DNA of 64,000 bases from contig JABZFM010000007.1 of NCBI GenBank assembly GCA_014237465.1, forward strand, positions 1 to 64,000, written 5' to 3'. The notes under the pieces are model-generated. The model was not told the DNA's origin. It saw only the letters and a list, made by a program, of their open reading frames with translations, and did not search any database. Both the position numbers and the translations under genes were made by a program. Each line of letters begins with the position of its first letter. The first letter of the stretch is position 1. Of the stretch, positions 38,694 to 53,182 are shown piece by piece. The stretch comes from Desulfobacteraceae bacterium. GTDB taxonomy: Bacteria; Desulfobacterota; Desulfobacteria; Desulfobacterales; Desulfosalsimonadaceae.

Positions 38694-40493
38694 ATGACAG
38701 CACATAAAAGAACTCCAGCGACCTTCGTCTGCCACGGAGTGGTTCTCCTTGCACTGATTTTCATATCCCTAATGGCCTCAAAACATGCCGGTGCAGCCTG
38801 AGTCGGTCCTCCGCTGACCGTGACTGTCAGCCCTGCAGAAGGTGGCGTGGTAGAAGCTGCTAATTTCGGAAGAACCAATGTTAAGTATTACCCGCCAAGT
38901 ACCACTGAAACATGTTTCAGCATCAATGAAATTGTCGATCTGGCTGCAACTCCGAACTCCGGATACAAGTTTTCCAGTTGGAGTATTTCCGGAGGGACCG
39001 TGTATGATGGTGCGATAAATCCAAAAAAAATAACAATGCCGGGTTCCACTTCAATTTCCACCCATGTAATTACTAATTTTACCAAAGACACTGCACCAGT
39101 AATGTCCGATGCCGAAGCGGTAACCCCAGTTGAGGCAAAAGCCCTGATAGACAGCAATAACCCTGTGATCGTTATTGATGTCCGCGAATCGAATGATTAT
39201 GATACCGGGCATATTATTTGTGCCCAAAATTATCCTTGGATTTCCGGCAAATTGTCTGAAATGTACACGGATTTCATTGCATATCAGAATAATGAAATCA
39301 TTATTTATGATCAGGACGGAACGATTAGCTATGAGGCGGCCACGCTGCTGGTGGAAAACGGGTTTTCAGCTGTTTACCACATGACCGGTGGACTGAACAA
39401 TTGGCAAAATGACAGTTATTATAAAGTTAATACCGATTGTAATTGCGAAATATGTAATATCCCCCCAATGGCGCATTCAGGGGCGGATCAGACGGTTAAT
39501 GAAGGCGATACGGTCACTCTGAATGCCGAGGGCTCTTCAAGCGTTTCCGGAACAATCGAAACTTATCAATGGGAGCAGTTCGGCGGTGATCAAACAGTTA
39601 TTTTATCAAATGCCACGGCTGCGCAACCGACGTTTATCGCCCCCTATGTTCAGCAGGGCGGTGATAAATTAATTTTTCATTTAACGGTTACGGACAGCAA
39701 CAACAATCAAGACACTGACAGTGTTGCCATTTTTGTGAACTGGTTCAATGATCCGCCGGAAGCTGACGCCGGCCCGAATCAAAACGTTAAAACAGATCAA
39801 AACGTTGAAACGGGAAAAACGGTTGTTCTTGACGGATCCGGGTCTTCCGATCCGGAAGGAACTATTGCCAGTTATTTCTGGACAATCGAGGCCGGCACGT
39901 TTGGCGTGGAACTATCAAATAACAATGCGGTAATGCCCGAGTTTACGGTGCCGATCACCAGCGGATGGATCAGGTTCCTGCTGACAGTAACCGATGACAA
40001 TGGGAAAACAGATACAGATTCCGTAACTATCACAATCGGTGCTTCAACCAATACACCGCCTGAGGCAGATGCAGGAGCGGATCAGATAACCAATAAAGGA
40101 GAAACGGTTCAACTCGATGCATCAGGATCGATAGACCCGGATGGATCGGTTACGAAATATCACTGGGAGCAGATCAGTGGACCGGAAGTAAAACTATCCA
40201 ACTCGTATGCTGTTCTGCCGACATTTTATGCCCCGGGGATAGACGAAACATCCGAATTGGTCTTTTTACTGACAGTAGAAGACAATAATGGCGTGACCGA
40301 CACGGATGATGTAATGGTTACAGTTAACAATATAACGGATTGTTCTTGGAACGCTGTAGAACTCGACTGGAATTGCCCGGATAATGCGGGAAGTGATGAC
40401 GATAATACTACTGTTGAGCCTGAAGAATCCGATCCAGAAGAGACAGAAAGCAGCGGCGGGAGCAGTTGCTTTATTTCCTCATTATTTGATTAA
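38694..40493 (+). CDS. Exported rhodanese/PKD-repeat protein with in-frame TGA (probable selenoprotein), paralog 1
   Basis: From the ATG at 38694 (after AAAGGAATAG) the frame gives a signal peptide with a hydrophobic core VVLLALIFISLMA and AGA cleavage motif (32-34), then Ala35, TGA (38799-38801, codon 36) and VGPPLTVTVSP, running on to 40493: 599 residues if TGA is Sec. Domains: divergent repeat-like domain (~40-125), rhodanese fold (VIVIDVRESNDYDTGHI ... FSAVYHMTGGLNNW, ~140-235), CNCEIC, then three PKD/REJ-like domains (~260-565), an acidic linker and a C-terminal SSCFISSLFD. The rhodanese active loop reads IIIYDQDGTIS, without catalytic Cys. A GTG at codon 43 could start a truncated product lacking export. 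The paralog at 43585-46746 has its TGA at the same codon. Confidence 0.8.
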
Positions 40494-40518
40494 GTTATAA
40501 TTTATTTAAGTTCTGACA

Positions 40519-40560
40519 CAATAAGCCCTTCCGGAACTTATCGGGAGGGCTTATTTTTTT
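40519..40560 (+). terminator. Intrinsic terminator after paralog 1
   Basis: AATAAGCCCTTCCGG pairs with CGGGAGGGCTTATT, followed by a T-run. It lies 30 nt past the stop codon. Confidence 0.85.
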
Positions 40561-40765
40561 CTCGCGCTTATCACCGGAAGTGAGCGCCCGCTATCGCCAA
40601 AATTTATAATAGACATTCTCTCATACCGTCATTTCATTTATCCGCTCTTGACTTACGACCTGTAATCCTATTAAATTAATTATTTAGATGAAACAACGCC
40701 ATAAAAAACGGGGACATCAAAGGTTATTTTCTTCTGACTCAGCGTGTAACCACAAGGAGCTTTTG

Positions 40766-42109
40766 TTGAAAATAAAACTCGCTTTATTTTTCCTCTCTAT
40801 TATCCTGTGCGCTTCAATTTCCGGATGTTATAACCCGAACGACACGTTGCGGAAAATCGAAAACCGGGGGCAGATTATTGTCATCACCGACAACAGCGCC
40901 CATGGCTTTTACCTGTACCAGAATCGGCCCATGGGTTTTGAATATCAGCTGACAAAAGAATTTGCAGCTTTTCTGAATGTTGAATTGACAGTCATCACAC
41001 CGGGCTGGGGAAAAATATTCGATACCCTTTTAAGCGGTGAAGGCGATCTTATTGCATCCAGCTTGACAAAAACGGAAAGGCGCAAAACCCGGGTGGTGTT
41101 TTCCGATGAATACATGCCGGTTCAGCAGCAGGTGATTGTCCGCAAAGGCTTTCGGGGCATAAAAAGACTTTCGGATTTAAACGGCAAAACCGTTCACATC
41201 CGGAAAAACACCTCATATCATGAGCGACTGGTGGAATTAAAAAAATCAGGACTGAATGTTCACCTTGCCCTTTATGAAAACACCCCGACTGAAGAACTTT
41301 TACGGCAAGTTCAAAACAATGAAATCAAAATCACGATTGCAGATTCAAATATTTTCCGGTTAAACAGGCGGTATTATCCGGACCTTCGAATTGCTTTTCC
41401 GATTTCAGAACATCAGTCTCTTGGGTGGGCGGTTAAAAAACATGACATCCGGCTGATTAAAAAAATTAATCAATTTTTTGATAATATAAAAAAAGACGGC
41501 ACTTTCACTCAAATCTACAATAAATATTATGCCGGCACGGAAATGTTTGACTATGTGGATATCAAAATATTTCATAACCGTTTAAAAACCCGGCTGCCCG
41601 CCTACAAACAGATTATCGAGAAAGAATCTAAAAAGTATAATTTTGACTGGCGACTGATTGCCGCAGTCATTTACCAGGAATCTCAGTTTAACCCAAACGC
41701 AATCAGCTATACAGGTGTCCGGGGACTCATGCAGCTGACAATGCCCACGGCAGATGAAATGGGTGTTTTAAACCGCTTAAACCCTGAAGAAAGCATTAAA
41801 GGCGGAATTAAGTACCTGCATAAACTCTATAATCAATTTGAAGGCCTGCATCCCGATGAAAGATTAAAATTTGCCCTCGGCAGTTATAATGTGGGATATG
41901 GACATGTAAAAGACGCCAGAAATATCGCACACGAAAAAGGGCTTGATATCAATCAATGGAGTTCCCTTGAAAAAACCCTGCCGTTACTCAGAAACCGGGA
42001 GTATTATGAAAAATCCGATTTTGGTTATGCAAGAGGAACTGAGCCGGTCCGGTACGTCAATCAGATTTTAACGTATTATAACATTTTAAAAATGACGCCG
42101 GAAGCATAA
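40766..42109 (+). CDS. mltF: MltF-like lytic murein transglycosylase (SBP domain plus SLT domain), lipoprotein
   Basis: Outer-membrane-type lipoprotein that cleaves peptidoglycan. Signal with lipobox SISGC, a periplasmic solute-binding-like domain (GQIIVITDNSAHGFYLYQNRPMGFEYQLTKEFA onward, about 30-240), then the SLT catalytic domain with Glu in AAVIYQESQFNPNA, YTGVRGLMQLTMPTA and SYNVGYGHVKDA. I favour the TTG at 40766, 6 nt after AAGGAG, giving a clean lipoprotein signal (447 aa); an ATG at 40688 in the same frame would add 26 basic residues and has no Shine-Dalgarno. Confidence 0.9.
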   Translation: MKIKLALFFLSIILCASISGCYNPNDTLRKIENRGQIIVITDNSAHGFYLYQNRPMGFEYQLTKEFAAFLNVELTVITPGWGKIFDTLLSGEGDLIASSLTKTERRKTRVVFSDEYMPVQQQVIVRKGFRGIKRLSDLNGKTVHIRKNTSYHERLVELKKSGLNVHLALYENTPTEELLRQVQNNEIKITIADSNIFRLNRRYYPDLRIAFPISEHQSLGWAVKKHDIRLIKKINQFFDNIKKDGTFTQIYNKYYAGTEMFDYVDIKIFHNRLKTRLPAYKQIIEKESKKYNFDWRLIAAVIYQESQFNPNAISYTGVRGLMQLTMPTADEMGVLNRLNPEESIKGGIKYLHKLYNQFEGLHPDERLKFALGSYNVGYGHVKDARNIAHEKGLDINQWSSLEKTLPLLRNREYYEKSDFGYARGTEPVRYVNQILTYYNILKMTPEA

Positions 42110-42175
42110 CCCCTAATCAGCCACATAATATTTTAAGCATTTAAAACTGCTAACAACGCATCCCTTATAATCCTG

Positions 42176-43336
42176 ATGAATAAAAAAGCACCCACCACAA
42201 TTTTTCACAAATATAAAAAAACCGCTGCCCTGGTTTTCTTGATTCTGTTTTCAGCCGGATTCAGCTATCATGTCATAACGACTTTCCCAACCCGGCACAT
42301 TAAATCCGGAACGACAAATTCGCACCCCAAAAATCCTTACACGGATCTTAAAAACATCGGAGAAAACTGGTGGGAAGCCGGACGGTTTATCTACCATGAC
42401 ATCCCCGCCAGAATTGTTTTTTTACTCCCGCCGGCAACAGGTAACCGTCCCGATGCAGTCAACGAGGCTATATGGCTTGAGTTTGATCGAATCGGCGATA
42501 TCTTTAACCCGTTTAAACCGGATTCTGAAATCTCCCGCATAAATTCATTGGTTCAGTCAGATTCAATCTCTGTATCAGATGATGTGAACTCTGTCATACG
42601 CATTTCACAACTTTTATGGGTCGACAGCAGCGGGCAGTTTGATCCGACCATGTGGCAAATCAAACGGCTCTGGCAAAACGCTGAAAAGAATCAGCAAATA
42701 CCGTCTGAAAAAGATATTGCCGCGGCATTACAATGGACCGGGTTTGATAAAATCCGGCTTGATGAAAATATTGAAAATTCAATAGAATTTGAAAATCACC
42801 CGATAAAATTCGATTTCGGGGGAATCGTAAAAGGCTATGCCGTAGACCAGGCCCGTCAGATTCTTTTAAACTCCGGCGTTACCGCAGGACTTGTGCAACT
42901 AGGGGGAGAAATCAGCGCATTCGGCAAAAACAACAAAAAACCGTGGCGCATCGGCATTCAACATCCCAAACAGATGGATAAGGTCTGGGGGGTTCTTTTA
43001 TCAAATAAGAGCCTCAGGATTTCGACGAGCGGCAACTACCGTCAGCCCATAAAAATCAACGGGCAATCCTTTTACCATATTTTCAGTCCCAAAACAGGCA
43101 AACCGGTCTCTGAAAAAATACTGGGTGTTACAACGGCATGTTTAAACGGTAAAAACGCCAATGCCCGGTTAGACGGAATCGCAACCGCCATAACGGTGAT
43201 GGGTGCTGCAAAAGGCCTTGCTCTTGCTGAAAAACTAAAAATTGATGTGCTGATTCTTTATGAAAAAAGAGACGGCACGATCGGGGAACTTATGACACCA
43301 GGGTTCTTAAACAATTATAAATCTTTTGATAATTAA
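42176..43336 (+). CDS. apbE: FAD:protein FMN transferase ApbE
   Basis: Transfers FMN from FAD to Thr/Ser of target proteins such as RnfG/NqrC-type subunits. 386 aa with an N-terminal membrane anchor (about 14-30), the FDPTMWQIKRLW segment, FDFGGIVKGYAVDQARQ, GLVQLGGEISAFG and the C-terminal ISTSGNYRQ and YHIFSPKTGKPV motifs with the metal-binding region near LDGIATAITVMG. Follows mltF by 66 nt in the same direction. No Rnf or Nqr genes lie in the window. Confidence 0.93.
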   Translation: MNKKAPTTIFHKYKKTAALVFLILFSAGFSYHVITTFPTRHIKSGTTNSHPKNPYTDLKNIGENWWEAGRFIYHDIPARIVFLLPPATGNRPDAVNEAIWLEFDRIGDIFNPFKPDSEISRINSLVQSDSISVSDDVNSVIRISQLLWVDSSGQFDPTMWQIKRLWQNAEKNQQIPSEKDIAAALQWTGFDKIRLDENIENSIEFENHPIKFDFGGIVKGYAVDQARQILLNSGVTAGLVQLGGEISAFGKNNKKPWRIGIQHPKQMDKVWGVLLSNKSLRISTSGNYRQPIKINGQSFYHIFSPKTGKPVSEKILGVTTACLNGKNANARLDGIATAITVMGAAKGLALAEKLKIDVLILYEKRDGTIGELMTPGFLNNYKSFDN

Positions 43337-43494
43337 GAGTCTCCCGTATTACTGAATGACTGAAATAGAACTGCATGGCATGAACACCATTTTCTCATAC
43401 ACGATGCGGCTTTATTTTTCACGCAGGAGCCTGTGAACGAGATTTTAAACCCTGTTTGCCAATCGTTAATTTTAGCCCTGCGAAGGTCCAAAAA

Positions 43495-43537
43495 TAAAAA
43501 TTCCCACAAATACGATACGCATCTGTGGGAATTTTTA
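43495..43537. terminator. Bidirectional intrinsic terminator between apbE and paralog 2
   Basis: AAAAATTCCCACA pairs with TGTGGGAATTTTT over 13 bp around a 15-nt loop; T-runs follow on both strands. It serves the convergent genes ending at 43336 and 43585. Confidence 0.85.
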
Positions 43538-43584
43538 TTACATTATTATAAACAGCAACTAACTGATTAAATCACAGGAACCCC

Positions 43585-46500
43585 TTATTCCACAAAGGAA
43601 GATATAAAGCATCCGCCACTACTTCCGCTGGATTTATTATTGATGGTTATTGCAACCGAATCTGAACGTTGCTGTCCGCTGTAATCCTCGACAGTTAATT
43701 TAAATCTCAGCACCACCACGCTTTCTGAAATTTCAGGTGCTTCAAATGCCGGTTTTTGTGCTAAATTGTCCGACAGAACAACTAGTTCACCCCTGACCTG
43801 CTCCCACAGATAACTCTTGATTCCATCATCCGGATCCGAAGAACCGGAGGCATCCAGAATCACCATATCCCCCTCATCAACCTCCTGGTCAGAGCCGGCA
43901 TCTGCAACCGGGGGTTCAGTGCTGGGATCAACGGTCACCGCGACCTCATCAAAGGTTACCAGCCCATCACTATCTTCTACCATCAACCGGAATGTTAACA
44001 CGTTGAAATCAGGATTGACAGCAGGCACTGTAAACGTCGGTGAAGCTGCCGAAACATCTGACAAAATGACCGTCGGTCCACTGGTCTGGGTCCACAAATA
44101 AGTGACTTCGCCGTCCAAATCTTTAGATTCGGAACCGTCCAGTGTTACGGTTTGTCTTTCATATACGGACATGTCATTTCCGGCTTTTGCAATCGGTGCC
44201 TGACCCACATCATCCACAATTATTTCAACCCGGTCCGTGCTTGTCTGACCTTCTGTATCAGCAACAGTTAATTCCATGATCACTGTCGCCGGGCTAACTT
44301 GTTCTCCAATAGACGGGGACCAAAGTATCGGAGTGGATATGAAAGCATCATTTAAACTCACTGCCGGACCGCTGATCTGGTGCCATTGATAGATAAGAGA
44401 GTCACCGTCCGGATCTAAAGAATCAGAGCCATCCAGCGCCACCATAGTTGTTTCATTGACTCTCTGATCTGCGCCCGCATTTGCAAGCGGTATAACATTT
44501 TTGTTGTTAACCGTTATTTCGACCTGGTCCGTGCTTACCTGCCCGCTGCTGTCTGTTACTATCAGTTTAAATATCAAAACGACCGGATCAAGACCGGTTT
44601 CCGGGGCAATGAACGTCGGATCCGCCGCAAAGCTGTCAGACAAAGACACCGCCGGACCGCTGATCTTATTCCATTGATAAGTCGCGATCCCGTCATCGGA
44701 ATCAAAAGACCCGGAACCATACAGTGCCACGGTTTGCCTTTCAAACACATCCTGGTCGGGACCGGCGTCCGCCACCGGCGGATCATTGATCCAGCTGATC
44801 TGGACCGAAGCCTGATCTGTTTTACCGGCATCATCTGTCACGATCAACTGGAATATTGCAGAGCCGGACGCATAGGGTGCGATAAATGTCGGCTGGATGG
44901 CTGCGCTGTCAGACAGAATGATAGATTCAGGTCCGGATGTGACCGTCCATTCATATGAAAAAATATTACCTTCAGGATCTGAAGAACCTGAACCGTCCAA
45001 AAAGACCATGCTACCCGGTATAACACTCTGATCCGGTCCGGCATCCGCAACCGGCGGTATGTTTTCACTGATATACGCCTGGCTGTTGACAGTTACTTTC
45101 ACTTCATCAGTACCAGTCGTTCCATTCGAATCTTTGACAATAAATTGAAAAAGAAGTTCCGTCTGACCACTACCGATTACAGGCGCTGTAAACGTCGGAT
45201 TTATCTCCCGGGTGGCTTCCGGCGCCATTCCATCACTGCCGGAAAGAACAACCGACGGCCCGAAAATCTTGGTCCACTGATAGCTTTTAACCACCGCATC
45301 CAGGGAAGACGACCAGGAGCCGTTCAAAGTAACGGTACTGCCTTCCGCAACCACCTGGTCCGGGCCGGCATCTGCTACAAGACCCGATGTTCCGCCTTCG
45401 GTATTGCTTGTGATCATCACCGTATCTGAATCCGTATCACCGTTATCATCCGTTACGGTTAGCCGGAATTGAACCCATCCCCTTGCATCCGGCGCGGTAA
45501 AAGTTGTTATTGGACCGGAAGGATGCGACAGGACGATTTCCGACGTATCAATTGCTGATGAACCGCTGATTAATTCCCAATGGTAGGCTGTAATCTCACC
45601 ATCCGGATCTGAAGAATTGGTGCCGTTCAGCGTCACGGTATCACCCGCCATTACCGATTGATCCGGACCGGCATCTGCATTAACGTCAGCATTCACCCAC
45701 TCAACCTCGATACTTACACTGTCGGTATCTTTCTGACCTGAGTCATTGGTAACGGTTAAATGAAAGACGATTGTATCACCCCCCTGTTGAACATAGGGTG
45801 CCGTAAAGGTCGGTCTGCCATCAGTCTCATCTGACAGGATAACCGTCTGGTCTCCTTCAATCTGCTCCCACAGGTAACTTAAAAAAAGGCTGCCAGGGGC
45901 ACTGGACCCGGTCCCGTTTAACATCACAGGCTCTGCTTCATCCACTGTCTGGTCCGGCCCGGCATGGGCCATTGGGGGAAGGCTGCAAATTTCACAATCA
46001 CAAGCCGCATCAATGGTCTGCCACCCTCTTTTTACCCAGCCGTCCATGCCATCGGTCATGTGATAAACAGATGTGAACCCCTCTTCGGCTAAAAAGTCCG
46101 CCGCATCATCGCTGGGCGACCGGTCCTTTCCGTAAACAAGAATATCATAACTTTGAAAATTGCTGAAATTCGTATAATACCTTTGCAAATATCCTGAACT
46201 CCAGGGGTAATTCTGAGCGCAAATGATATGGCCGGCGTCAAAATCAACGGATTCACGGACATCAATAACGATCACTGGATTATTACTGTCTATCATGGCT
46301 TTTGCTTCATCAAGCGTCACAGACTCGGCCCCGGCCGGTGGAGGCGGCACAGCGCCAGTGAAATAAGCAACCACTCTGGTTGAAATATCTGAAGAGTTCG
46401 GCAATTGAATAGAATATGGATTCCTTGTGCCGCTGTAACTAGTCCCACCAGAAATACTCCAACGGGAAAACGTGTACCCGGAGCCCGGGTTTGCAGTAAG

Positions 46501-46746
46501 CGTGATTGTTTCCATAATATTAAAACACGTTTCAGTGGTACTTGGCGGGAAATTCTTAACATTAATCCTTCCAAAATTAGCAGCTTCAACCACACCACTT
46601 CCTGTCGGGCTGACGGTCACGGTCAGCGGAGGGCCGCCTCAGCCCGCTTTTGCAGATTGGGGAAGGAACATTGACAAAGAAACCAGTAAAACAAACACCG
46701 CCGCATAGAAGCCAAGCACTGAAATATTGAAAAACTTTTTACCCAT
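43585..46746 (-). CDS. Exported rhodanese/PKD-repeat protein with in-frame TGA (probable selenoprotein), paralog 2
   Basis: From the ATG at 46746: signal peptide (MGKKFF, hydrophobic core VLGFYAAVFVLLVSLSMFL, AKA at 32-34), Gly35, TGA (46641-46639, codon 36), then GGPPLTVTVSP and an open frame to 43585, 1053 residues with Sec. Domain order matches paralog 1: divergent repeat-like domain, rhodanese fold (VIVIDVRESVDFDAGHI, FTSVYHMTDGMDGW) whose loop ILVYGKDRSPS lacks the catalytic Cys, CDCEIC, then about eight tandem PKD/REJ-like domains marked by repeated ADAGPDQ and FxLTVTD, and a C-terminal SGGCFISSFVE. It is longer because of extra PKD repeats. The DNA just after the TGA is nearly identical in both paralogs, as expected for a shared SECIS. 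A GTG at codon 43 is an alternative internal start. Confidence 0.8.
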
Positions 46747-47367: not shown

Positions 47368-47546
47368 TTAATTGCAAAATCCTGTATTATAAACGCTATA
47401 CCCGCTGGATCCCCAGGAGTCCCGGGCCTTGACCCAGTGATAATTGCGGCTGCCGGGCACCGCAGTGGTATCATCATAAGAAAACCCGGCCACAGATGAT
47501 GCGATCCAGTCATTCAGGCCGTCTGTCATATAATATATGGATTTAA
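47368..47546 (-). pseudogene. Remnant of a third rhodanese-type exported protein
   Basis: A 58-codon minus-strand frame begins FKSIYYMTDGLNDWIASS, matching the end of the rhodanese fold in the two intact paralogs (FTSVYHMTDGMDGW). The Gly codon expected before it is TGA. The rest, SYDDTTAVPGSRNYHWVKA and DSWGSSGYS, looks like a piece of a fibronectin III-like domain, and the frame stops at 47368. Everything N-terminal to this is gone. Confidence 0.75.
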
Positions 47547-47592
47547 ATCAAGTTCTGTACAAAAAATCAGTTAACACGGCCCACATCGACCA

Positions 47593-48724: not shown

Positions 48725-51700
48725 ATGGATCAGAAATCCGAACCTGTGAGCAACGAACAGAAAAACAATACAGTCGGTTCGGCCATGGTGGTTGGGGCCG
48801 GAATTGCAGGCATGCAGTCTGCGATTGATTTAGCGAATTCAGGATATTATGTCTATCTTCTGGAAAAATCATCCGCCATCGGCGGACTTATGTCCGAGCT
48901 TGACAAAACTTTTCCCACCAACGACTGTGCCATGTGAGTCATCTCACCCAAACTGGTCGAGGTCGGCCGGCATTTAAACATTGAACTGAGAACCGGAACC
49001 GAAATTCTTGCGTTGGAAGGCCAACCGGGAAACTTTAAAGCAAAAATTCACCAGGAGGCAAGGTACGTTGATCTTTCAAAATGCACCAGCTGCGGTGAAT
49101 GCACAAAAGTATGCCCCATAGAGGTTCCCAATGAATATGATCAGGGCCTTTCCATACGTAAAGCCATTTTTAAAAAATACCCCCAGGCCATTCCCGGCGC
49201 ATTTGCCATCAGCAAAAGAGGGACCGCCCCCTGCAAGACCACCTGCCCGGCCCACGTCAGCATCCAGGGATACATCGCCCTTATTAATGAAGGAAAATAC
49301 TTTGAAGCCTTAAAACTGTTCAAACAAGACCATCCCTTCCCCGGTGTTTGCGGACGGGTTTGTCACCATCCGTGTGAAGGCGAATGTACCCGGGGCGATT
49401 ATGATGAATCATTGGCAATCCGTGAGCTGCATCGCTTTCTGGCGGACTGGGAACAGACCCAAGACTCACCCTATATACCTGAAGTTCCGGAAAAAAGAGA
49501 CGAAAAAGTCGCTATTATCGGTTCCGGACCGGCCGGACTGGCCGCTGCCTATTTTCTGGCACTCCAGGGATATCAGGTGACCATTTTTGAAAAACTGCCG
49601 GTTACCGGCGGCATGATGGCTGTGGGAATCCCTGAATACCGATTGCCGAGAAATATCCTCAACAGTGAAATCCAGACCATTGAAAAAATGGGTGTGGAGA
49701 TCAAAACCAATATCACATTCGGCAAAGACATTACCCTAGACAGCCTGAAAGCAGATGGTTTTTCCGCCACATTTATGGCCATCGGCCTGCATGGAGGCCG
49801 CCGGCTCGGCGTTGAAAACGAAGATACGGACGGCGTTCTACAGGGCGTTGACTTTTTGCGTGATGTGGCCATGGGAAAAGATGTTTCAATCGGCAAGGAT
49901 GTTCTGGTGATCGGCGGCGGCAACGTTGCCATTGATGTTGCCCTGTGCGCCAAACGAAAAGGTGCGGATAATGTAACGCTGGTCTGCCTGGAATCCAGGG
50001 ATGAAATGCCGGCCTGGGAACATGAAATTGAAGAAGCCCTTGAAGGGGATATCAAAATTGTCAACAGCTTTGGGCCGAAAAACTTTTTCATCGACAAAAG
50101 CAACCGGGTGTCCGGGATTGAGTTTAAAACATGCACAGCGGTTTTTGATAGTGACGGCAGGTTCAGCCCAAAATATGATGAATCCGCATGCCAGGCATTT
50201 TTTGGCGATACCATTATTGTTTCCATCGGACAATCAACCAACCTGGAACATATTACTGAACAGGGTATTGAGGTCTCCCGCGTGGGTGGTCTTCATGCCG
50301 ACCCGATCACCCTGCAGACACCTATTGACTGGGTTTTTGCAGGTGGGGATGCGTTTTACGGTCCTAAATCGGTTGTGGATGCGGTTGCCTGCGGTAATGA
50401 GGCTTCTAAAAGCATCCACCGGTTTATAAACGGCCTGGATTTAAAACAAGGTCGTGAAAAGGTATGGGAATATGAAAAGCCCGATATTCTCAACGAGCCT
50501 TTGAAACCCCGAACACCGGTCCGCTGCCTGGCGCCGGATGCCCGGGAATGTAATTTTCTGGAAGTCTCATATGGGTATGACGAAAGTGAAGCCAAACATG
50601 AAGCAGGCCGATGTCTGAAGTGCGGCATCTGTTCTGAATGTTATCAATGTGTTGATGCGTGCCTTGCCGGCGCCATTAACCACAATGAAACAGACATCGA
50701 AGAAACCCTGGAAATCGGCTCGGTTATCCTTTGCCCCGGAAACGATATTTACGATCCATCCGCTTTAGATGACATCTATCATTACAAAACCAGCCCCAAT
50801 GTCCTCACCAGCCTGGAATTTGAACGGATTCTGTCTGCATCCGGCCCCACCATGGGACACCTGGTGCGACCGTCTGATGAAAAAGAACCTGAAAGAATCG
50901 CCTGGTTGCAATGTATCGGCTCCAGAGACACCAACCGCTGCGGAAACGGTTACTGTTCTTCGGTCTGCTGCATGTATGCAGTCAAAGAAGCCATGATTGC
51001 CAAAGAACACTCCAAAAACGATCTGGATGCGGTGATCTTTAATATGGACATCCGAACATTTGGTAAGGATTACGAAAAATATTACCTCCGTGCCAAAGAC
51101 AATGACGGGGTACGGTTTGAAAAAGCCAGAATTCACACGATTGATGAAATCAAAAAAACCGGAAACCTTTGCCTCAGATATGTAAATGAAGCCGGCGCAA
51201 TCCACGAAGAAGAATTTGACATGGTGATTCTCTCCGTCGGCATGCAGGTTTCGGAATCCGCCATTGCCACCGCGAATCTGCTTGACATTGAACTGAATAA
51301 AAATAATTTTGCGGCCACAAACCCTTTTACCCCGGTGGAAACCAGTCGTCCGGGCGTTTTTGCCTGCGGCGTTTTCCAGGGCCCCAAAGACATCCCCACA
51401 TCCATCACGGAAGCCAGCGCTGCCGCCTGTGCTGCGGGACGTTATATGGCCGATGCGCGGGGAACGCGCATCAAACAGGTAGATACTCCCGATGAAATTG
51501 ATGTGAGCGGAGACCCGCGCATCGGGGTATTTGTCTGTGACTGCGGTATCAATATTGCCGGTGTTGTCGATGTTCCGGAAGTAATGGAATACGCCAAAAC
51601 GTTACCGAATGTTGTGTACTCCGGAGAAAATCTCTTTACCTGTAGCCAGGACACTCAGGAACAGATGAAAGAGATTATCAAAGAGAACCAGCTGAATCGG

Positions 51701-53182
51701 ATCGTGGTTTCTTCCTGCACCCCCAAAACCCATGAACCGATTTTTATGGATACGCTTGAAAAATGCGGCCTGAACAAATATCTGTTTGAAATGGCCAATA
51801 TCCGGAACCAGGACTCGTGGGTGCATTCCGACGAACCTGAGCAGGCAACCAGTAAAGCCAAAGAACTGGTAAAAATGTCCGTGGCACGGGCTGCCTCCCT
51901 TCGTCCACTGCATGAAAGGCAAATCCCCGTCACATACAGGGCCTTGATTGTCGGCGGCGGCATTGCCGGAATGAATGCCGCCATCGGCATCGCAGACCAG
52001 GGATTTGAAGTGGTCCTGGTGGAAAAAGAAGCCGATCTGGGCGGACTGGCCAATCGATTAACGAGCACCATCGAAGGTGCGGATATCCAGGCATACCTCT
52101 CACAATACATTCAAAAAGTGAAAAATCATCCCAAAATCCAGGTATTGACCCAATCATTGATCGTTGATTTTTCAGGTTTTAAAGGCAACTTTAAAACAGA
52201 AATTTTAGTCGGACCCGGAATGTATGAACGCAAAATAGATCACGGGGTGCTCATTATAGCAACCGGCGGCAATGAATACGAACCAAAAGAGTATCTGTAC
52301 GGTCAACATCCGGGGATATTGACACAAATTGATTTGTCACAGCGGCTTGAAAAAGATGGCGCAGACGCCCTGGATCAGGTGGTGATGATTCAGTGTGTGG
52401 GTTCCAGAAATGATGAAAATCCAAATTGCTCCCGAATCTGCTGTCAGAGTGCCATCAAAAATGCCATTCATATTAAAGAACTCAACCCGGACACCCAGGT
52501 TTTTGTTCTGTATCGTGACATTCGAACTTATGGGCTGATGGAGGAATATTACACCCGGGCCAGAGAGCTCGGTGTCTTCTTTTTCCGATTCAAAGCCGAT
52601 GACCCGCCGGAGGTCACATCATCTGAAAATGGACTTACCGTCACCTTTACCGACTATATCCTTGGCAGAAAACTCAGTGTGGACACCGACCTGGTGGCTT
52701 TAAGCGCCGGTGTTGCTGCAGAAGATACCGAGGAGCTGGCGTCTATTATGAAACTGAACCGCAATCCTGAAAATTACTTTATTGAGGCCCATGTCAAACT
52801 ACGACCGGTTGAAATGGCTACCGAAGGAATTTTCGTGTGCGGTACGGCCCACAGCCCCAAACTGATCACTGAAACCATTGCCCAGGCCCAGGCAGCAGCC
52901 TCCCGGGCGATCACCTTTTTGTCCCAGCCCCATTTAACATTGTCTGCCGTAACCGCATGGGTAGACCAGGAAAAGTGTGCGTCATGCCTGATCTGTATTC
53001 GAAGCTGTCCGTATGGTGTCCCGCGGATCAATGATGAAGGGGTCAGTTATATTGATGATGCGTTATGCCAGGGATGCGGCGCCTGTGCCGCGGAATGCCC
53101 GGCAAAGGCGATTGAATTAAACTGGTATGAAGATGAACAGTTACTTAGCAAGGTCGACGCCTTACTGGAAGGAGCCATATGA
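48725..53182 (+). CDS. hdrA: Giant HdrA-GltD-HdrA fusion, selenocysteine-containing
   Basis: One frame with a TGA at 48935-48937 (codon 71), 1485 residues. Order: HdrA N-terminal FAD motif ([16 protein letters not shown]) and NDCAM-U-VISPK, where other HdrA proteins have Cys; [4Fe-4S] [12 protein letters not shown] near 115; a GltD/NADPH-GOGAT-like insert ([54 protein letters not shown]); [13 protein letters not shown] cluster; rest of the first HdrA ([20 protein letters not shown]); a second whole HdrA ([43 protein letters not shown]); and two C-terminal ferredoxin motifs. The fold set fits an NAD(P)H-dependent, flavin-bifurcating hub passing electrons to MvhD and MetF/MetV. Start after TTAGGAGAG. 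Overlaps mvhD as ATGA. No hdrB or hdrC lies here. Confidence 0.92.

Follow-up and report, generated by a model that had tools for sequence, protein, structure and literature searches.

Prokaryotic selenoproteins are grouped into 119 families and subfamilies in a 2026 inventory (PMC13188914). This study describes two genes in a window of 64,000 nucleotides, the whole stretch of DNA analyzed, which covers positions 1 to 64,000 of contig JABZFM010000007.1 of a Desulfobacteraceae bacterium (assembly GCA_014237465.1). In both genes a signal peptide is followed by TGA at codon 36. This codon is most likely read as selenocysteine (Sec), with a probability of about 0.96 and translation continuing into the long open reading frame (ORF) behind it, because the genome contains SelB, tRNA-Sec, and SelA and a short covarying hairpin follows the TGA, which is conserved in 36 genes.

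Among described selenoproteins, those with UGA and a bacterial Sec insertion sequence (bSECIS), such as FdhA and HdrA-Sec, share with the window genes the in-frame UGA, the hairpin directly 3' of it, and the SelA/SelB/tRNA-Sec machinery. Unlike these proteins, the family has no thioredoxin-type motif, and its Sec would stand at the N-terminal end of a mature, exported beta-repeat module; cysteine (Cys) homologs are virtually missing, and a genome has several paralogs. The selenoproteins of the rhodanese-like group (forms 1-5; PF00581, NF041203, NF045694 TsoB) likewise carry a rhodanese-like domain, but their Sec is linked to this domain, whereas that of the present family is placed well upstream of it, in a different domain; NF041203 scored 32 bits against a cut-off of 115 and NF045694 scored 23 bits against 805, both far too low. 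The loop Cys of active rhodaneses (CxxGxRS) is absent from both window genes, which read YDQDGTIS and YGKDRSPS, and the catalytic Cys is kept in member L079 (VICRSGNRS). Divergent InlB B-repeat proteins (PF18998) have an equal domain by Pfam, but the ordinary PF18998 proteins examined contain no Sec, and several of them have a loop Cys pair (CPxxC type) instead of one Cys and Sec. The hypothetical protein DG (NF049953, GUxG) has the letters G-U-x-G in common with the family; a search of the window genome with NF049953, run without a positive control, found nothing. In SaoB (motif CUxxT), CU is perhaps located at a lipoprotein N-terminus, to judge only by the motif.

A B-repeat protein that is exported and carries Sec at its N-terminus is not described in the inventory of 119 families (PMC13188914), and no NCBIfam selenoprotein model (June 2026) was above its cut-off for the twelve members tested. 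The family appears to be new relative to these two sources; according to the initial annotation of the window, no described family is known to have Sec at mature position 2. An earlier mention may have gone unnoticed, with two key papers (Haft 2023, 2025) outside the comparison. As selenoprotein searches lean on Cys homologs (PMC13188914), of which the family has almost none, it could have been passed over.

Conservation of the TGA codon and of the hairpin behind it

The N-terminus of gene 1 reads MTAHKRTPATFVCHGVVLLALIFISLMASKHAGAA-U-VGPPLTVTVSP and that of gene 2 MGKKFFNISVLGFYAAVFVLLVSLSMFLPQSAKAG-U-GGPPLTVTVSP, with codon 36 as the only in-frame stop in either ORF. The initially annotated placement of this codon, between a signal peptide whose AxA occupies residues 32-34 and the peptide GPPLTVTVSP, is thus borne out by the sequence of both genes. 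Purine-rich stretches resembling ribosome-binding sites precede the ATG (AAAGGA in gene 1 and CGGGAG in gene 2), and a CFISS tail rich in Gly and Ser forms the C-terminus of both proteins.

Homologs were collected with a profile search of 98 relatives, followed by searches of the order, class, and phylum and by a pattern scan of a collection of 84,980 species. N-terminal matches with exactly one TGA occurred repeatedly among the 98 relatives. Signal peptide, small residues, TGA, and then L-T-V-x-V-S-P were found at the homologous site of 36 distinct genes, comprising the two window genes, a third member on contig C33 of the same genome (G000), and 33 members elsewhere. The site, whose codon in homologs the initial annotation had proposed to check, is TGA in 36 of 37 homologs and Cys in the 37th, while no other sense codon and no TAA or TAG were found. 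The Cys homolog (AAAT-C-YDRLTVKV) lies beside a Sec paralog in genome G144, and its hairpin sequence is altered.

Three members are present in G000 and five in G144. Carriers were assigned to five genera of the family of the window (f1), to three more families of the order (f53, f67, and f70), and to another family of the phylum (G732), giving at least nine genera and five families, all of one phylum; metagenome-assembled Deltaproteobacteria (L111, L113, L137, and L144) are further carriers outside the nine-genus count. Within these searches, the predicted selenoprotein family is restricted to one phylum. Exact-pattern matches in the genome contig collection had a family protein around the TGA in 18 of 38 cases, and the remainder were chance matches in unrelated organisms. 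A first scan of genome and viral contig collections with a two-sequence alignment gave no matches, its peptide patterns being too specific.

The RNA of the family folds as GCUGAC-CGUGANN-GUCAGC, a stem of 6 bp with a loop of 7 nt. The stem starts 12-21 nt after the TGA, and the spacing from TGA to loop is 17 nt in both window genes, with a family range of 17-26. Published bSECIS rules name a loop of 3-9 nt, a stem of 4-16 bp, a G in the first two loop positions, a UGA-loop distance of 16-37 nt, and a minimum free energy of at most -7.5 (PMC13188914). The hairpin agrees with those on loop, stem, G position, and spacing; with short flanks included, its folding energy in the window genes is -8.1 and -8.4 kcal/mol.

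The initial annotation had noted an elevated DNA similarity of the two genes behind the TGA, and this extends to the family. In the 30 genes found by protein similarity, CTG ACC GTG NNN GTC AGC is nearly invariant at third codon positions, and the Pro codon right after this frozen stretch uses all four CCN synonyms. The CTGAC..GTCAG stem is kept in 28 of 28 Sec genes with LTVxVxP, compared with 1 of 8 non-Sec B-repeats with an equal peptide motif. Across 34 sequences, 99.0% of pair cells are paired and three pairs show double changes. All 500 shuffled alignments and all slid controls stay below the observed covariation score and number of double changes. The shuffle count amounts to less than a probability owing to the relatedness of the sequences, and 4 of the 34 had been found through the motif itself. 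The outer G-C pair is exchanged for A-U in three genes and for U-A in one, C-G for U-A in L089 and, at a different pair, in L031, and A-U for G-U in four genes. These joint changes include the third bases of Ser and of the codon preceding the stretch (G-C to A-U).

In the genome of the window (5.1 Mb, 99.96% complete), tRNA-Sec (75 bits), SelB (369 bits), and SelA (615 bits) are all above curated cut-offs, and SelB is also present in most of the carrier genomes checked. The check for selA, selB, and selC suggested with the initial annotation was thereby positive, and its reading of Sec recoding with a conserved SECIS is supported by the conservation of TGA, the covarying hairpin, and the machinery; none of the three outcomes it had named as refuting was observed. 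Two observations weigh against recoding. In a 49-nt context, a different structure beats the hairpin in both window genes, so that the case rests on comparison and not on single-sequence folding. Moreover, G005, G012, and G014 have no full-length SelB above cut-off, perhaps since they are draft genomes. An Rfam search of the window gave no match.

Predicted position of selenocysteine in the protein and its possible role

Inspection of the family sequences identified an n-region, a hydrophobic core, and an AxA-like site, with a hydropathy count made for the two window genes. With high confidence, the product is predicted to be an exported protein with Sec at mature position 1-3. Export would proceed by the signal peptide, signal peptidase would cut 0-2 residues before Sec, and Sec would form the N-terminus of the mature protein or lie close to it, immediately ahead of the first B-repeat strand. 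The remaining parts (PKD, FN3, rhodanese-like, SdrD-like or DUF5719-like domains and the CFIS tail) would display this Sec module on the cell surface or outside. Sec at mature residue 2, as initially annotated, fits both window genes but not the whole family, where AxA-like cleavage gives position 1, 2, or 3.

In 33 of 34 genes, the 85-residue stretch behind Sec contains a single Cys, while Cys accounts for 0.4% further along the proteins. Its position shifts between +1, +3, +28 to +42, +49, and +67 to +74 from Sec, and it is usually located in a loop at +28 to +42. Where the loop Cys is missing, a substitute adjoins Sec (UC, L059) or is found at +3 (UxxC, L089), at +49 (L144), or at +67 to +74 (L079, L100, one L101 gene, L111, L113, and L137). 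Several ordinary B-repeats have two loop Cys where this family has one Cys and Sec, which suggests that a Sec-Cys pair substitutes for a Cys-Cys pair, and the balance tips slightly towards pairing of Sec with the single domain Cys. Such pairing is not universal: L065 has two Cys in the domain, L182, found later and outside the 34, has none, and the sole Cys homolog is also without a partner Cys, all of which speaks against it. L200, likewise found later, has three.

Sec may tentatively be regarded as a structural fastener and not an enzyme residue, the Sec-Cys bond closing the N-terminus and resisting reduction in sulfide-rich water, with the partner Cys moving and the pair kept. A selenenylsulfide between Sec and Cys would staple the free N-terminus to the B-repeat domain or act as the redox switch of the domain. 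The setting would be anoxic and, since the relatives are Desulfobacterales, probably sulfide-rich, conditions under which a normal disulfide would have lower stability. For Sec/Cys motifs, redox potentials of about -256 to -275 mV are reported (SELENOF and Grx3 analogs), below the -175 mV of PDI (PMC9304195), and such values would fit a clasp that survives reducing surroundings.

Another reading accepts the recoding and makes Sec the catalytic residue of a surface redox enzyme, acting for example on polysulfide, thiosulfate, or metals. It is in line with the mostly catalytic use of Sec in known families (PMC13188914), with the rhodanese-like domain that comes next in many members, and with the short motifs UC (L059) and UxxC (L089). 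However, Sec travels with the B-repeat alone, as in the rhodanese-less members L056, L100, L101, and L111, the rhodanese domains of the window genes are without the catalytic Cys, and B-repeats are not known enzymes, which leaves catalysis unlikely. Structure prediction gave usable models, with predicted local distance difference test (pLDDT) values of 81.5 and 85.8. PDB matches of the two-domain model were rhodaneses, and the B-repeat model alone had no significant PDB match.

The location of Sec directly after the signal peptide, usually behind A or G, would also suit a seleno-lipoprotein in which Sec replaces the lipobox Cys and is Se-acylated as an N-terminal anchor. The residues before Sec (AKAG, AGAA, AEGG, CAEA, ATA, and ARA among others) instead fit cleavage by signal peptidase I, with Sec 0-2 residues after AxA. 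A lipobox has L, V, or I at -3, a small residue at -1, and Cys at +1, whereas most members have K, E, G, D, or A at -3 and +1 is Sec. The conserved partner Cys would be left unexplained as well, and such an anchor is improbable.

Little room is left for a true stop, in which the signal peptide would be a leader ORF and GTG codon 43, located in the hairpin loop, would re-initiate a cytoplasmic protein. This GTG is in frame and is chosen by standard ORF finding, and the initial annotation had named a start there, without signal peptide, as the dull alternative. It is rejected here, because a full in-frame signal peptide is kept in 36 genes and always ended by TGA, never by TAA or TAG, the conserved residues between TGA and GTG would be left unexplained, and no ribosome-binding site lies 5' of the GTG. 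PKD, FN3, and B-repeat proteins are furthermore exported types, and the genome has the Sec machinery. Nonsense mutations or assembly errors in pseudogenes, to which a decayed family remnant nearby (47368-47547) might point, can be dismissed, as one codon occurs at one site in 36 genes from many assemblies, where the ORF continues undamaged and the hairpin covaries.

Domain architecture and genomic context

The features of the window are listed in Table 1. Domains after the B-repeat vary among members and include rhodanese-like, PKD, FN3, SdrD-like, and DUF5719-like domains, frequently with a Gly-rich CFIS tail.

Table 1. Positions of the selenoprotein genes, their parts, and neighboring features in the window.
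Feature	Position	Strand	Description or basis
Selenoprotein gene 1, 599 residues with predicted Sec36	38694-40493	+	Signal peptide, N-terminal Sec, B-repeat, rhodanese-like domain, three PKD repeats, SSCFISSLFD tail
Signal peptide, gene 1, residues 1-34	38694-38795	+	AGA at 32-34; sequence; hydrophobic core mean Kyte-Doolittle 3.2
Predicted Sec codon TGA, gene 1	38799-38801	+	Conserved in 36 genes
SECIS-like hairpin, gene 1	38813-38831	+	GCUGAC-CGUGACU-GUCAGC
Divergent InlB B-repeat domain (PF18998 region), gene 1	38805-39086	+	Single Cys at residue 74
Rhodanese-like domain, gene 1	39123-39410	+	Catalytic Cys replaced (IIIYDQDG); Pfam; sequence
PKD repeats, gene 1	39477-40340	+	Pfam
Selenoprotein gene 2, 1053 residues with predicted Sec36	43585-46746	-	Architecture of gene 1, but eight PKD repeats and GGCFISSFVE tail
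Signal peptide, gene 2, residues 1-34	46645-46746	-	AKA at 32-34; sequence; hydropathy count
Predicted Sec codon TGA, gene 2	46639-46641	-	
SECIS-like hairpin, gene 2	46609-46627	-	GCUGAC-CGUGACC-GUCAGC
Divergent InlB B-repeat domain, gene 2	46357-46635	-	Single Cys at residue 74
Rhodanese-like domain, gene 2	46030-46317	-	Catalytic Cys replaced (ILVYGKDR); Pfam; sequence
PKD repeats, gene 2	43630-45939	-	Pfam
Decayed remnant of another family member	47368-47547	-	Rhodanese end joined to FN3-type C-terminus (...GYSVYNTGFCN*)
HdrA-type fusion gene	48725-53182	+	In-frame TGA at 48935-48937; known selenoprotein type

The smallest members, L111 and L113, have about 105 residues from Sec on and consist of Sec, one B-repeat, and the tail GGGCFTRTIMR. 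A C-terminal region YFPH..SPWQTEI..INT (weak DUF5719 match) recurs after the Sec module, with no PKD repeats, in several genomes (L101, L103, L104, L144, and L182). Stretches of the putative metal-binding MopE type (DGDGDGY..DCDD-like) are located downstream of the Sec module in L065 and L067. The Gly-rich tail with CFI[ST][ST], located within a few residues of the stop, is also found on an exported-type protein outside the family (L151; G000 contig C51:43646), so that this short C-terminal stretch may act in sorting irrespective of Sec.

In seven loci, the window included, a family gene is located divergently upstream of metF and/or hdrA; this synteny is no proof of shared function. The decayed remnant in the window sits between gene 2 and the metF-type gene, where several relatives hold an intact family gene. 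For the HdrA-type gene of the window, standard ORF finding calls a shortened version from TTG 49013.

Meaning for the selenoproteome

The family adds to the selenoproteome a group of proteins that is prone to be missed, as it has few Cys homologs and ORF calling cuts off both the signal peptide and Sec. Its hairpin would be a very well conserved natural SECIS of about 17 nt, with loop and stem open to comparative study. Large exported repeat proteins with Sec right at the N-terminus, in several copies per genome, would be a costly use of selenium that wants a reason, and whether this Sec is catalytic or a reduction-resistant clasp becomes a testable question.

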